Assembly (NCBI RefSeq): GCF_003387155.1
Contig: NZ_QUMT01000003.1
Coordinates: forward strand, 310,001-374,000
Length of the DNA stretch: 64,000 nucleotides
From: Roseateles depolymerans
GTDB lineage: Bacteria > Pseudomonadota > Gammaproteobacteria > Burkholderiales > Burkholderiaceae_C
Reading direction: 5' to 3'
Made by a program: the position numbers and the translations under genes. The notes beneath the pieces are model-generated. The model saw only the letters and a program-made list of their open reading frames with translations. It was not told where the DNA came from and searched no databases. Shown here piece by piece: positions 42,582 to 47,914 of this stretch (the first letter of the stretch is position 1; each line of letters starts with the position of its first letter).

Positions 42582-42932
42582 ATGTTCTCGTCGGAATTCC
42601 GCCGGCTCTGGGGCTGGCCGCTGCTGCTGGGTCTGCTGACAGCCAGCGGGCTGTTCACCGCGCTGGTGTCGGACCACTGGGGCGACGTCTGGTCCTGGGT
42701 CGCGCTGGGGATTCCGGTCGGCGTGATGGGCTGGTTCGGGTGGCGCCGGACGCCAGCTGACAGCGACGGGAGTCCGTCTGGTTCAGCCACTGGTTCAGCC
42801 ACTGGTTCTGCCACTGCCACCGCCACAATCGAAACCGCCCCGGCGACCTCGGCGCTCGCTTCATTCGCAGCGGCGTCGCCAGTACAGCCGCACGCCAGGG
42901 GAACGGCAGCCGCAGTGGAGCCCCGCGCATGA
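42582..42932 (+). CDS. Small membrane protein of iron-type PepSY operon
   Basis: 116 residues. Two membrane helices (about 10-28 and 36-52) fill the N-terminal half, with W-rich FRRLWGWPLLLG and DVWSWVALGIPVGVMGWFGW. The C-terminal half is Ser/Ala/Thr low complexity containing three copies of a four-residue repeat. Similar small proteins precede PepSY genes in siderophore-linked operons. The stop overlaps the downstream start. Confidence 0.75.
   Translation: MFSSEFRRLWGWPLLLGLLTASGLFTALVSDHWGDVWSWVALGIPVGVMGWFGWRRTPADSDGSPSGSATGSATGSATATATIETAPATSALASFAAASPVQPHARGTAAAVEPRA
42780..42815. repeat. 12-bp tandem repeat in the small membrane gene
   Basis: GGTTCAGCCACT twice, then GGTTCTGCCACT: three 12-base copies encoding Gly-Ser-Ala-Thr repeats in the soluble tail. 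Confidence 0.75.
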
Positions 42933-44119
42933 TGAGCGCCCCCGCCATCCGCGCCTGGACCTGGGTGCACAAGTGGACCAGCCTGATCTGCACGCTGTTC
43001 ATGCTGCTGCTGTGCCTGACCGGCCTGCCGCTGATCTTCCATCATGAAATCAGCCACTGGCTGGGCGACGATATCCAGGCCCCGACACTGACCGGTGAGC
43101 AGGCCGCGTTGGCACAGCGCGCGCCGGTCAGCCTGGACGTGATGGCCGCCGCCGCCAAGGCGCGGTATCCGGACCGGGTCATTCAGTTCGCTGGCCCGAA
43201 CGAGGACGATGACCGGCTGTGGTGGTTCACCCTGACGCCGACCCCCGCCCCCACCAATGACTACAAGTCGCTCGCGGTGGACACCCGCACCGGGCAGGTG
43301 GTGGGCGACTACAAGGTGGGCGAAGGCTTCATGGACCTGATGCTGCGCCTGCATGTGGACCTGTTCGCCGGCCTGCCGGGCAAGCTGTTCCTCGGCTTCA
43401 TGGGGCTGCTGCTGCTGGTGGCGCTGGTCAGCGGCGTGGTGCTGTATGCCCCCTTCATGCGCAAGCTGGACTTCGGGGCCGTGCGCCGGGACCGGTCCCC
43501 CCGCATCCGCTGGCTGGACCTGCACAACCTGCTGGGCATCGTCACGCTGGTCTGGTGTTTTGTGGTGGGCGCCACCGGCATGATCAACACCTGGGCCGAC
43601 CTGCTGGTGAAGTATTGGCAGTACGACCAGCTCACGACAGTGTTGGCACCCTACAAGGACGAGCCGGTCACGCCCATGGATCAGCGAGGCTCCTTGCAGC
43701 AGGCGCTGGACAACGCCGTGAGCCATGCGTCCGGGATGAAGGTGTCGTTCATCGCCTTCCCGGGGACGTCCTATTCCAGCCCGCACCACAACACGGTGTT
43801 CCTCAAGGGCGCCACGCCGCTGAAGTCCAAGCTGCTGACGCCCTTGCTGATGGACGCGCGGACCGGTGTGCTGACCGCAGCGCCGGAACTGCCCTGGTAC
43901 CTCACCGCGCTGCTGGTGTCCCAGCCGCTGCATTTCGGGGACTACGGCGGCATGCCGATGAAGGTGCTGTGGGCGCTGCTGGATCTCGCCACGATCGTGG
44001 TGCTGGGGTCTGGCGTGTACCTGTGGTTGCGCAAGCCGCAGGGGGCGCGGCGGCAGGCGGCGAGCACGGCGGCTGGGCGCGAATTGATGCAGGAAGACCT
44101 GGACGCGGCAGCGGGGTGA
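42929..44119 (+). CDS. PepSY-associated membrane protein
   Basis: 396 residues with four membrane helices. Typical sequence: WTWVHKWTSLICTLFMLLLCLTGLPLIFHHE at the start, HVDLFAGLPGKLFLGFMGLLLLVALVSGVVLYAPFM and LDLHNLLGIVTLVWCFVVGATG in the core. Members of this family (PiuB-like) are found with TonB-dependent siderophore receptors and are thought to reduce ferric-siderophore. The start at 42929 overlaps the preceding stop; no TonB receptor is in the window. Confidence 0.9.
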   Translation: MMSAPAIRAWTWVHKWTSLICTLFMLLLCLTGLPLIFHHEISHWLGDDIQAPTLTGEQAALAQRAPVSLDVMAAAAKARYPDRVIQFAGPNEDDDRLWWFTLTPTPAPTNDYKSLAVDTRTGQVVGDYKVGEGFMDLMLRLHVDLFAGLPGKLFLGFMGLLLLVALVSGVVLYAPFMRKLDFGAVRRDRSPRIRWLDLHNLLGIVTLVWCFVVGATGMINTWADLLVKYWQYDQLTTVLAPYKDEPVTPMDQRGSLQQALDNAVSHASGMKVSFIAFPGTSYSSPHHNTVFLKGATPLKSKLLTPLLMDARTGVLTAAPELPWYLTALLVSQPLHFGDYGGMPMKVLWALLDLATIVVLGSGVYLWLRKPQGARRQAASTAAGRELMQEDLDAAAG

Positions 44120-44138
44120 TCCCTGCGTGCAACAGCCG

Positions 44139-44167
44139 TTGACTACTGTATGCCCATCCAGTACATT
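44139..44167 (+). promoter_or_regulatory. Strong sigma-70 promoter containing an SOS (LexA) box
   Basis: TTGACT (-35, 44139-44144), exactly 17 bases, TACATT (-10, 44162-44167). The 20-base segment 44144-44163 reads TACTGTATGCCCATCCAGTA: outer TACTGTAT and CAGTA match the E. coli LexA consensus (TACTGTAT...ACAGTA), conserved CTG-N10-CAG. It lies between the -35 and -10, the classic position for SOS repression. Confidence 0.7.
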
Positions 44168-44221
44168 GGATCCATCGCGGACGGTGGCAACGAGGGAGTT
44201 CGAAGCCACCCCCACCCCAAC

Positions 44222-44271
44222 GCAATTGATCGGCTGAGCGGTTCTTCACTCGCTGCCCACTGAGCAATTGC
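44222..44271 (+). promoter_or_regulatory. Leader inverted repeat
   Basis: GCAATTG (44222-44228) and CAATTGC (44265-44271) form a 7-base stem closing a 36-base loop in the leader of the SOS transcript, 22 bases before the small ORF. It could structure the 5' leader and affect ribosome access. Confidence 0.4.
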
Positions 44272-44293
44272 ATTCTGGCAACGGGAGATGGCA

Positions 44294-44404
44294 ATGCAAG
44301 TGCTCAAGCAACGAGTCTGGTCTTCGCTGAACAACGCGGATGCGTGGGTTCTCGGCATTGGCGTCTTGTCGTGTCTGGGTCTGGTGACCGGGGTGCTGGG
44401 CTGA
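44294..44404 (+). CDS. Small hydrophobic membrane peptide, SOS-controlled candidate
   Basis: 36 residues beginning MQVLKQRVWSSLNNADAW and then a single hydrophobic helix (VLGIGVLSCLGLVTGVLG) to the C-terminus. The ATG at 44294 has GGGAG 6 bases upstream; the in-frame ATG at 44288 is too close to it. A charged, amphipathic N-terminus and a hydrophobic C-terminal helix resemble type I toxin peptides such as TisB, but sequence similarity is not claimed. It is driven by the promoter/LexA box at 44139-44167. No antisense RNA is evident. Confidence 0.55.
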   Translation: MQVLKQRVWSSLNNADAWVLGIGVLSCLGLVTGVLG

Positions 44405-44482
44405 ATACAGCCCCCGCGATACGACATTTCAGTTCAAACCCCCTTGGTCCGCCCTGATGGAGCGGTTGGCGTCGGTGCCCGA

Positions 44483-44516
44483 ACCGTCGGCAGCCCTCCC
44501 CGGCGGATATTTTTTT
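44483..44516 (+). terminator. Possible terminator of the SOS transcript
   Basis: CCGTC and GGCGG form a weak 5-base stem, followed by ATATTTTTTT ending at 44516. With the promoter start near 44174 the transcript would be about 340 bases. Weak stem, good T-tract. Confidence 0.35.
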
Positions 44517-44558
44517 GCGCAGTCCGAGTATGCAGGGCGTCGCCGTTCAACCGCCGGC

Positions 44559-45524
44559 TCAGATCGGCGTCTGCAGCGGCTGACCGTTTTTCCAGCGTTC
44601 CGCGTTGAGCAGGAACAAATCCACCGTCGCCTGCACCGATTCCGGGGACCAGCCCGCAATATGCGGCGTGAGGATCACGTTGGGGAAGTCCAGCAGCTCG
44701 CGCGGCGGATGGGGCTCGGACTCATACACGTCCAGGGCCGCGCCGCCCAGTTGACCGTCGGCCAGCACCTTGGCCAGCGCAGCGGTGTCCACCAGGCTGC
44801 CACGAGCAATGTTGACCAGATGCCCTTGTGGGCCCAAGGCCTGCAGCACCTGCGCATTGACGATATGGCGGGTGCCGGGTCCGCCCGGCGCCGCGACCAC
44901 CAGGAAATCGGCCCAGGTGGCCAGTGACAGGACGGAATCGAAGTAGGCGTAGGCGCCGGCATCCGGACGGATACGACGGTTGTGATAACCGACCTCCATG
45001 TCAAACGCCGCCGCACGGCGCGCAATGCGCATGCCGATGGTGCCCAGACCCAGGATGCCCAAGCGGCGGCCGTTGACGCTGGGCCGCAGCGGCAGCGCAT
45101 CGCGCCAGACCCCCGCACGCAGGGCCTGCTCCTGCTGCGGCAGCGCCCGCACGCTGGCCAGCAGCAAGGCCATCGCATGGTCGGCCACGCAGGCGTCGTT
45201 GGTGCCGGCGCCATTGGCCAGGGCGATGCCTCGCGCCTTTGCCGCCGCCACATCGATGTTCTCGTAGCCTGCACCGAGCGCGGACACAAACCCGAGGCGC
45301 GGCATGGCGGCGATCTCCTCGGCACGCAGACCCACGGCGCCGATGGTCAGCACCACTTCGATGTCCGCACCATGGGCCGCCACGGCCTCCGCGCGCAACG
45401 CGGCAGTGGGGGCGTCAATCACCTCAAACCGCTCTCGCAGCTGCGCCTGATGCTCCTGCGCCATCGGCATGAGCAGCAGCAGCTTGGGTCGTGAACCGGA
45501 GGTGGGCGGGTGGGTGTCGTTCAC
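44559..45524 (-). CDS. D-2-hydroxyacid dehydrogenase (hydroxypyruvate/glyoxylate reductase-like)
   Basis: 321 residues from a GTG at 45524 with GGGGA upstream. NAD(P) motif GILGLGTIGMRIARR, catalytic Arg in NIARGSLVDTAAL, Glu in DVYESEPHPP and His in ILTPHIAGWS. It reduces 2-oxoacids such as glyoxylate or hydroxypyruvate. Divergent from vgrG. The upstream in-frame region to 45785 overlaps vgrG and is not coding. Confidence 0.93.
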   Translation of the reverse strand: MNDTHPPTSGSRPKLLLLMPMAQEHQAQLRERFEVIDAPTAALRAEAVAAHGADIEVVLTIGAVGLRAEEIAAMPRLGFVSALGAGYENIDVAAAKARGIALANGAGTNDACVADHAMALLLASVRALPQQEQALRAGVWRDALPLRPSVNGRRLGILGLGTIGMRIARRAAAFDMEVGYHNRRIRPDAGAYAYFDSVLSLATWADFLVVAAPGGPGTRHIVNAQVLQALGPQGHLVNIARGSLVDTAALAKVLADGQLGGAALDVYESEPHPPRELLDFPNVILTPHIAGWSPESVQATVDLFLLNAERWKNGQPLQTPI

Positions 45525-45547
45525 AAAGGTCCCCAGGGACAAGTTAC

Positions 45548-47914
45548 ATGGAGGCGGATGATAGGTCGCAGGGGGACGGGCCTCGGAGTGCCGGGCGTGA
45601 TTCGCACCATGAGCCGCGGAGGATGGGCAGGGCGTGGCGGGCTTGGACAGAGGCCAGGCGTCAATTGGTGGCGTGGCGGCACGACGCGCCTGTCGATCCA
45701 GCGCATGACTTTGGACAGTTGTTGTTCTTGAACGACGTCCATAGAGTGAGCGCTCTGTTGAATCCTCGCGCCATGGCCTCTCCATATCGCCTCAAGACCG
45801 TATTGCCTGACGACGTACTGCGCGTGCATTCCTGCACTTCGCGTGAGGGCCTGAGCGACGTTGGAGTCACCACACTGACGCTGCTCAGCGAGCGCAAGGA
45901 CATCTTGGCCACCGAGTTGCTGGGCAAGCTGGCCACTCTGACGATTGCATTGCGCGAGGACGCTCCTCGCCACCTGAGTGGCTACGTCACCCGCTTCGCA
46001 CAGCGGGGCTTTGAAGGCAAGCACTGCGTTTATGAAATGCAGCTCAAGCCCTGGCTGTGGCTGCTGTCACGCACATCCGACTGCCGGATCTTCCAGGCAA
46101 TGTCAGTTCCGGAAATCGTCAATCAGGTGTTCGAGGACCATCCGGTCGCCCGTTACGAATTCAGGTTGATGCGCCCCTACCGGACCTGGAACTACTGCGT
46201 GCAGTACCGCGAGACCGACTTCAACTTCATTGCGCGGCTGCTGGAGCATGAGGGCATTTACTGGTATGTCGAGCATGACGAGAGCGGGCACAAGGTCGTT
46301 CTGTGCGACTCCACCACCGGGCACGACGCGAAGCCCGGATGTGAATCGTTGCCGTTCTACGGGTCGGAGTCGCAGGGCGCGCCGCAGTTGGAATACGTGC
46401 AGAGCTGGAGCGGGGCGCAGTGCGTCCAGCCCGGTAAGGTAGTCATCACCGATTACGACTTCGAGAAGCCCTCGAGCGCGCTGGAGACCAGTCGGTCTGT
46501 CAAGCGCGATTACGACCTCTCGGAGGGCGAGATCTTCGATTACCCAGGCGGCTACACCAAGGCCGGGGACGGATCGCAGTACGTAGAGGATCGGCTCGAC
46601 GAATTGCAGAGCAGCCAAGAGATGTACGACGGCACGACCAACGCGCAGGGCGTGCAGACAGGCCACCTGCTTTCGCTGACGCGGCATCCGCGTGACAGCG
46701 AAAACGCGCAGTACCTGGTGACCAGCACGCACCTGAGCCTGCATCAGGCAGCGAACGAATCCGGCTCAGGCGCGACCTCCCTGCGCTGCAGCTTTACCTG
46801 CATTCCAGCGCAGCAGCAGTTTCGGCCCGCGCGCCGAACGCCCAAGCCGGTGGTGTCGGGGCCGCAGACGGCGATCGTGACGGGGCCGGCTGGCGAGGAG
46901 ATCCATACCGACAAGTTCGGCCGGGTGAAGGTGCAGTTCCATTGGGATCGCCGAGGCAAACGCGACGAGCGCAGTTCATGCTGGGTGAGCGTGGCGCATC
47001 CATGGGCGGGATCGAACTTCGGCGGCATCCACATTCCGCGCATCGGGCAGGAGGTGATCGTCGGCTTCATCGAAGGCGATCCGGACGCGCCGATCATCAT
47101 CGGCCGCACCTACAACGGCGAGAACCTGCCGCCCTGGGACCTGCCGGCCAATGCGACGCAAAGTGGATTCCTGACGCGCTCAACCAAGGGCGGGAGCTAT
47201 GGCAATGCCAACGCGATCCGCTTCGAGGACAAGCAGGGCGCCGAGCAACTGTGGATCCACGCGGAGAAGAACCAGGACATTGAGGTCGAGAACGACGAAA
47301 CTCATTGGGTCGGACGTGACCGGACCAAGACGATCGATAGGCACGAGACGACGCTTGTCAAAGGCGACCGCACGGAGACGGTGAATCTGGATGAGACGAT
47401 CACGATCCATCAGAATCGCACTGAGCGGGTCGATCTCGACGAGAAGATCTCGATCGGGATGAACCGGACCGAGGACGTAGGCGTCAACGAGACGATCAAC
47501 ATCGGGTCGAACCGGTCGGTGACGATCGGGGGCAACAAGACCGAGACGGTCTCGATGGCCAAGGCCGAGACAATCGGGCTTGCAAAGGCGCTGACGATCG
47601 GGCTGGGGTATCAGACCTCCGTGGGCGCAGCGATGAACACGACTGTTGGCGGCCTGCAGACAGAGCAGGTCGGCCTCTTCAAGCAGGTGTCCGTGCTGGG
47701 TGGTGATTACACCGTGAGCGTGAGTTCCGGCGGCTACGCGCTGACTGCTGCCAAGGAAATCAATATCACAGTCGGCAAAGCCAGCCTTGTGATGAAGGCA
47801 GATGGTGCCATCACGATCAACGGGCACACTTTCAGTGTTGGTACCAGCGACGCTCAGAACTTCAATGCCGACGGTGACATCACCGTCAAAGGCAAGACCA
47901 TTTACGACAACTGA
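45548..47914 (+). CDS. vgrG: Type VI secretion tip protein VgrG
   Basis: About 788 residues. The gp27-like part (LRVHSCTSREGLSDVGVTTL, RETDFNFIARLLEHEGIYWYVEH), the gp5 OB-fold (GRVKVQFHWDRRGK, SCWVSVAHPWAG, GGIHIPRIGQEVIVGFIEGDPDAPIIIGRTYN) and a long C-terminal beta-prism of repeated short threads (ETVNLDETITI, RTERVDLDEKISI, ETINIGSNRSVTI) are present. VgrG forms the tip of the injection tube and carries effectors. The start is uncertain: 45548 has GGGA at suitable spacing but only 23 bases to the divergent start, and the first 40 codons look atypical; the true start may be downstream near 45623. No structural T6SS genes are in the window, so this is an orphan vgrG island. Confidence 0.93.
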   Translation: MEADDRSQGDGPRSAGRDSHHEPRRMGRAWRAWTEARRQLVAWRHDAPVDPAHDFGQLLFLNDVHRVSALLNPRAMASPYRLKTVLPDDVLRVHSCTSREGLSDVGVTTLTLLSERKDILATELLGKLATLTIALREDAPRHLSGYVTRFAQRGFEGKHCVYEMQLKPWLWLLSRTSDCRIFQAMSVPEIVNQVFEDHPVARYEFRLMRPYRTWNYCVQYRETDFNFIARLLEHEGIYWYVEHDESGHKVVLCDSTTGHDAKPGCESLPFYGSESQGAPQLEYVQSWSGAQCVQPGKVVITDYDFEKPSSALETSRSVKRDYDLSEGEIFDYPGGYTKAGDGSQYVEDRLDELQSSQEMYDGTTNAQGVQTGHLLSLTRHPRDSENAQYLVTSTHLSLHQAANESGSGATSLRCSFTCIPAQQQFRPARRTPKPVVSGPQTAIVTGPAGEEIHTDKFGRVKVQFHWDRRGKRDERSSCWVSVAHPWAGSNFGGIHIPRIGQEVIVGFIEGDPDAPIIIGRTYNGENLPPWDLPANATQSGFLTRSTKGGSYGNANAIRFEDKQGAEQLWIHAEKNQDIEVENDETHWVGRDRTKTIDRHETTLVKGDRTETVNLDETITIHQNRTERVDLDEKISIGMNRTEDVGVNETINIGSNRSVTIGGNKTETVSMAKAETIGLAKALTIGLGYQTSVGAAMNTTVGGLQTEQVGLFKQVSVLGGDYTVSVSSGGYALTAAKEINITVGKASLVMKADGAITINGHTFSVGTSDAQNFNADGDITVKGKTIYDN

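Follow-up and report, generated by a model that had tools for sequence, protein, structure and literature searches.

A patchy family of putatively SOS-controlled single-helix membrane peptides in Burkholderiales, tentatively proposed as a DNA-damage division checkpoint

SidA of Caulobacter is a 29-residue membrane protein that inhibits division by interacting with FtsW (PMC4211646); SosA and YneA are Gram-positive SOS-induced division inhibitors that cross the membrane once, through one helix, and have their C-terminus on the outside (PMC6851548); and in E. coli LexA controls the tiny inner-membrane peptides TisB (29 aa), described as assembling by means of salt bridges together with a polar face (PMC8309996), and DinQ (27 aa), made from a transcript of ~330 nt (PMC3567139). 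To our knowledge, only a few model species have revealed how division halts during repair when SulA is lacking. Here we describe a gene for a 36-residue membrane peptide in a 64,000-nucleotide stretch of the Roseateles depolymerans genome (contig NZ_QUMT01000003.1, positions 310,001 to 374,000; hereafter “the window”) that appears to be controlled by LexA. We tentatively propose, at somewhat short of an even chance, that SOS-controlled proteins of 36 to ~83 residues with a single helix, scattered over at least eight genera within a single Burkholderiales family, form a family not recognised before, that they supply the DNA-damage division checkpoint missing from bacteria without SulA, and that they do so through a helix face lined with glycines, which acts on the septal synthase complex.

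The unit reads, in order, promoter and box, a leader of ~120 bases with one hairpin, GGGAG, an ATG at 44294, 36 codons, a stop codon ending at 44404 and a terminator ending at 44516 (Table 1). An earlier note, made from the letters of this DNA, had described a sigma-70 promoter (TTGACT, a 17-base spacer, TACATT) overlapped in its spacer and −10 hexamer by a 20-base LexA-type box, and both elements lie where it placed them. A consensus scan of both strands from 44050 to 44600 returned this single promoter-like site (0.1 expected by chance). The note had also proposed a search with a LexA matrix; we used a symmetric matrix trained solely on operators that front lexA and recA in 16 congeneric genomes (32 operators, 7 unique, both orientations), with which the window box ranks first in the 64 kb (14.7 bits, against 8.0 for the runner-up), and 0.09 matches as good are expected per 64 kb, as judged from 100 base-shuffled windows. 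The sequence TACTGTATNNNNATACAGTA, at no more than one mismatch, has four sites genome-wide in the window's own genome, the window box among them, and its reversed control has none. In this genome imuA (NCBIfam NF033429, E 3.8e-59), a known SOS gene, is preceded by a box in which 2 of the 20 bases differ from the window box.

LexA and RecA are each encoded in 16/16 congeneric genomes, and in every one both genes have upstream operators of the same type as the window box: TCCTGTATAAAAATCCAGAT (7 genomes) or TCCTGGATAAAAATACAGA[TGA] (9 genomes) for lexA, and [CT]ACTGTACAGATATACAGAT (15 genomes) or CACTGTACAGATATCCAGTT (1 genome) for recA. It is extremely improbable that the window box arose by chance or serves a different regulator. 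Either would suit its half-site mismatch (CCAG instead of ACAG) and its score below the lexA and recA operators on which the matrix was trained (25.6–30.0); the CCAG variant is shared by 5 of 15 congeners, the window's genome included, and is also found in the lexA operators of 7 genomes and in one recA operator. Against it stand the ranking by the matrix, the site count in the own genome, the same-type operators of lexA and recA, the presence of the box at 15/15 congeneric loci and the joint occurrence of box and gene in 8 genera; a chance box was rejected on the matrix score and the shuffled expectation. An operator matching the congeneric lexA and recA operators sits over the promoter, and the cross-genome comparison gives good support to SOS control of a small membrane peptide with one helix.

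Two further observations concern SOS boxes in these genomes. Good boxes front two uncharacterised short genes (“MLVRAL...” and “MLLDLN...”), divergent in some cases, at six loci of genus genomes (L087, L092, L096, L097, L099 and L105); the first 60–70 residues of one example of each gave no Pfam or NCBIfam match at E 0.01 and 0.001. On contig 1 of the window's own genome (~1348665, L063) there is a second LexA-like protein, possibly of mobile-element origin, with a near-palindromic box, TACTGTACAACCGTACAGTA, ~63 bases upstream of the match.

Among 100 relatives searched at the protein level, the peptide occurs in 15 of the 16 genus genomes and, at E ≤0.001, in 0 of the 84 others. Every congeneric copy (15/15) has an SOS box upstream and keeps the Shine–Dalgarno sequence before its ATG, the comparison by which the earlier note had suggested its idea be checked, and a −35 of TTGA type lies in register at 14 of the 15 loci. 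The open reading frame that the note had singled out as the one preceded by a ribosome-binding site is the 36-residue frame found here, with GGGAG 6 nt before the ATG; an alternative in-frame ATG at 44288 has no equivalent in genome G004, so 36 aa is the better start. In a comparison of 14 genomes (91 pairs, not independent of one another), the in-frame pN/pS is 0.178, as compared with 0.84 and 5.98 for the two alternative frames, which indicates that the reading frame is under purifying selection.

These values bear on whether an SOS-induced small RNA might be the functional product and the reading frame incidental. In favour of such an RNA, the predicted transcript is compact, with a hairpin and a terminator, and a 9-mer, TTTCAGTTC, at 44427–44435 in the window, lies 23–188 bases past the stop codon in 12 of the 15 congeneric loci (L032–L045 being among the 15), in 1–3 copies, and is present on neither strand elsewhere in those ~3-kb loci; this element would suit RNA-level control or a 3′-end role. 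However, purifying selection acts on the reading frame, the leader varies in both length and sequence, and the peptide is what 7 other genera share. We consider a product of RNA alone very improbable, and rejected it on the in-frame pN/pS. The sequence thus gives good support for the regulation and for the coding, whereas the mechanism set out below is a proposal.

Beyond the genus, protein profiles were run on 399 family genomes (twice), on 319 family genomes and on 399 + 300 genomes of the order Burkholderiales; in a genome that yields many candidates these searches score only ~17–20 of them, which makes the distribution given here a lower bound. The search of 399 family genomes gave G043, G208 and G289 (one genus, E ≤8e-6) and G139 (E 0.0025); a second round on these genomes added G166, G049, G260, G022 and G349; and G122, at E only 0.16 in that second round, was found in the 319-genome search. 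These ten relatives, found by protein-only searches in 7 further genera, are all short genes with an upstream box, scoring 19.1–27.3 in nine and weakly in G260 (9.4–9.6), and the eight genera covered are g1, g29, g125, g152, g35, g8, g14 and g108. A pattern search for named carriers (6 of 18 pattern matches confirmed) gave Mitsuaria chitosanitabida, Mitsuaria sp. WAJ17, Roseateles subflavus, Pelomonas sp. BJYL3 and CA6, and a Rubrivivax metagenome-assembled genome.

As the profile used on the 319 family and 300 order genomes (A3) includes members that were accepted after their box had been seen, the fairest count is that of outside-genus matches absent from the query alignment: at E ≤1e-4 these are G289, G043, G208, G166, G049 and G122, and 6/6 have a good box. 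The 59 loci examined from the 319- and 300-genome searches fall into two groups. Fourteen are family members (4 in the genus), with best boxes of 9.6–27.3; among the remaining 45, the best score is ≤4.2 at 44, and at one (G692) a site ahead of a 248-aa frame reaches 11.8 bits. By mismatch count, the long-frame chance match L131 reaches 5 mismatches, equal to G260 and G349; the matrix separates G349 (19.9) from chance, but not G260. The order-wide search (399 + 300 genomes; 29 loci of the 300-genome matches examined) gave no convincing member outside the family, and three outside-genus loci from its 399-genome part lack a box. At the 10 loci viewed, neighbours vary between genera (contexts being taken from the longest frames, and neighbours not systematically identified), so box and gene appear to form a conserved unit. 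Candidates not accepted were G309 and G151 from the search of 399 family genomes (long frames without a good box) and G603 (a 28-aa frame resembling the start of the core, without a box).

The relatives share a common core, [DEN][PA]xxW[VI]xx[IL][GA]xxxxxG[LIF]xxGx[LF], whose helix has no charged residues. In the ten sequences tested, the core is always preceded by a basic stretch (net +1 to +5) and its C-side is always neutral to acidic (net 0 to −3), and we therefore predict one helix with the N-terminus inside. Past the core there is nothing in 3/10 and a C-terminal tail of 19–39 residues in 7/10, the tailed ones all coming from other genera. Conservation along the helix is strongest at a period of 95–100 degrees, that is, on one face (p 0.02, for 13 sequences chosen from 25 members, uncorrected for relatedness), which holds the W, the I, the two invariant glycines and the L that follows. 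One-faced conservation that includes glycines points to packing against a partner or against itself, not to an amphipathic pore.

We favour, at about even confidence, a SidA/SosA-like checkpoint peptide docked on a membrane partner, perhaps the divisome. LexA bound at 44144–44163 would block the sigma-70 promoter; DNA damage would release it through RecA-driven cleavage of LexA; and a short monocistronic mRNA of ~340 bases (44174–44516) would be made and translated into the 36-residue inner-membrane peptide, with its N-terminus inside and its C-terminus at or in the periplasm. The LexA steps are supported by the sequence together with established knowledge of LexA. Induction after DNA damage, membrane insertion and docking are those that we infer: the glycine face of the helix (W...I......GL..G) and the [DEN][PA]xxW motif would dock on a membrane protein, most probably in the septal cell-wall machinery (at the level of FtsW, FtsI or FtsN), and division would pause during repair, the job done by SulA in E. 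coli and by SidA in Caulobacter. Among the outcomes that the earlier note had offered, namely depolarisation, arrest of division and persistence, it is thus arrest of division that we prefer, and a depolarising toxin is held to be less likely given the uncharged helix and the short leaders.

It is rather unlikely that the SOS-induced peptide instead regulates a different membrane protein, such as a protease (for example FtsH), a transporter or a respiratory complex, which it would tune during repair. The same evidence for SOS control and the same partner-binding helix face would serve such a role, and many small membrane proteins tune other membrane proteins in this way; on the other hand, no genomic link to such a complex was noticed among neighbours that differ between genera and were not systematically identified.

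Several observations weigh against the checkpoint proposal as a whole. One genus member (G006) gave no match to the peptide in the protein search. The gene is patchy, being found in 14/319 family genomes by a search that is insensitive for so short a protein. Among matches at E 1e-4 to 1e-3, a box is present in 1/3 (G260, weak) and absent from G251 and G186, and the G260 boxes (9.6 bits) are weaker than the chance site upstream of one non-member (11.8 bits). The p value of 0.02 for the helix face is modest, and a conserved face is likewise compatible with self-association, as a pore or holin-like assembly, or with a different partner. SulA (PF03846) was found in 0/16 congeneric genomes, but as support for a checkpoint this is only suggestive, because SulA is poorly conserved outside Enterobacteriaceae anyway (PMC6851548); in a control set of 14 genomes only E. 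coli gave a SulA match, and Caulobacter did not.

The earlier note had called the peptide TisB-like, and a type I toxin of the TisB/DinQ kind would dissipate the proton-motive force and favour dormancy, its leaky mRNA being silenced by the leader hairpin or by an unlinked antisense RNA. SOS control and the single helix of that comparison stand: by its sequence, the gene encodes a tiny hydrophobic peptide under putative LexA control, close in size to TisB and DinQ, with a predicted mRNA of ~340 bases next to the ~330 nt of dinQ. The window locus has a leader hairpin, and TTTCAGTTC could be an RNA pairing site. Glycine-rich helices can self-associate. The remainder of the comparison is not supported. 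From box to ATG the distance is 45–193 bases across the 15 congeneric loci and 45–80 in 9 of them (45–46 in 7 of these 9), so a long leader, inhibitory or otherwise, is not a conserved part of the unit. The hairpin at 44183–44210, which bears out an inverted repeat seen by the note, is confined to the window's clade, where its loop is retained and its stem bases vary, and was not found in the other ten congeneric loci; overall folding of leader plus gene is not unusual (z −1.65, with 16/200 shuffles equally good). The lone promoter-like site in 44050–44600 is on the plus strand, so the consensus scan gives no antisense promoter there, and Rfam has no match in the window at gathering scores; an unlinked antisense RNA was not sought. 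The uncharged helix is unlike the salt bridges and polar face of TisB assembly (PMC8309996), and some members carry tails of 19–39 residues. No toxin family model matched, the window peptide having 0 Pfam families at E up to 1; Pfam presumably holds a TisB model. Taken together, we regard a toxin of this kind as unlikely.

Other libraries gave a similar result. For the window peptide, NCBIfam returned one row (E 0.11) and solved structures one row (E 0.37), both short of the cut-offs, and PHROGs none; six relatives reached no Pfam or NCBIfam cut-off (rows at E 0.017–0.21, to unrelated families), and two had PHROGs rows at E 0.035–0.041. Across the libraries searched, the peptide thus belongs to no modelled protein family. 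In viral_contigs the pattern was matched by 25 stretches, and no relative was confirmed; the 64-residue G049 relative had no plasmid match; and the 10 plasmid records matched by window DNA cover only the end of the PepSY gene described below and at most 36 bases beyond it. These searches, which did not extend to the phage records collection, give no hint that the gene belongs to a phage or a plasmid. Literature searching of limited extent found no publication on this peptide family.

The features of the locus are collected in Table 1. The T-tract that the note had seen near 44516 is a T-run (44510–44516) preceded by a strong hairpin (−38 kcal/mol, z −3.6, 0/200 shuffles as good), although a simple short-loop terminator scan did not list this terminator. 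The peptide gene is flanked on one side by a gene for a PepSY-TM protein (42929–44119, Pfam PF03929) and on the other by a 2-hydroxyacid dehydrogenase gene in convergent orientation. At 7/15 congeneric loci (L039–L045) the end of a Fur-like gene precedes the box (Pfam FUR checked at a single one of them, L040 of G004), which is not so in the window; the neighbouring gene is therefore not fixed even among congeners. Further downstream (45491–47914) a VgrG-like protein with Phage_GPD and Gp5 domains is encoded.

Table 1. Features of the peptide locus, in window coordinates
Feature	Position	Strand	Basis and conservation
−35 hexamer TTGACT	44139–44144	+	Consensus scan; TTGA[AC]T at 13/15 congeneric loci, TTGATC at 1, no match in G008
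LexA (SOS) box TACTGTATGCCCATCCAGTA, 20 bases	44144–44163	.	Top window site with the lexA/recA-trained matrix; SOS box at 15/15 congeneric loci
−10 hexamer TACATT, overlapping the box	44162–44167	+	Consensus scan; TACATT at 12/15 congeneric loci
Predicted 5′ leader, ~120 bases	44174–44293	+	Start inferred from the −10
Leader hairpin GGTGGC...GCCACC	44183–44210	+	Predicted fold; loop sequence in 5/15 congeneric loci (G000, G009, G010, G012, G015)
Shine–Dalgarno GGGAG	44283–44287	+	6 nt ahead of ATG; GGAG before ATG at 15/15 congeneric loci
Gene for 36-residue membrane peptide, stop included	44294–44404	+	Homologs in 15/16 congeneric genomes; in-frame pN/pS 0.178
Terminator: long G+C-rich hairpin and T7 run	44447–44516	+	z −3.6

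A conserved, LexA-boxed tiny gene that the searched libraries do not model, with a sequence signature and a putative partner-binding face, makes the question of how division halts in SulA-less bacteria directly testable in strains of the genus that are safe in the laboratory, and a short helix profile combined with operator evidence can reveal small SOS membrane peptides. In outline, the present architecture matches SidA, SosA and YneA. SidA of Caulobacter crescentus is likened to the window peptide here by description; judged from sequence, the window peptide would be an SOS-induced single-pass inner-membrane peptide as SidA is, and Caulobacter, like the window's genus, gives no SulA match, whereas the present family differs in having tailed members. 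With SosA, YneA and DivS of Gram-positives the family would share SOS control, a single membrane helix and an outer C-terminal part (PMC6851548); their genes commonly lie beside lexA and several of the proteins have LysM, whereas lexA was not seen adjacent to the present genes at the loci viewed, and the present proteins have tails of 0–39 residues and no Pfam domain at cut-off. TisB/IstR-1 and DinQ/AgrB of E. coli likewise involve LexA-controlled tiny inner-membrane peptides (PMC8309996, PMC3567139), but in the present family the long leader is not conserved, no antisense promoter was seen, and the helix is uncharged with a conserved face. SulA (PF03846) is an SOS-induced division inhibitor, which is the role proposed here; it is cytosolic (PMC6851548), and PF03846 matches neither the window peptide nor any protein of the 16 congeneric genomes.
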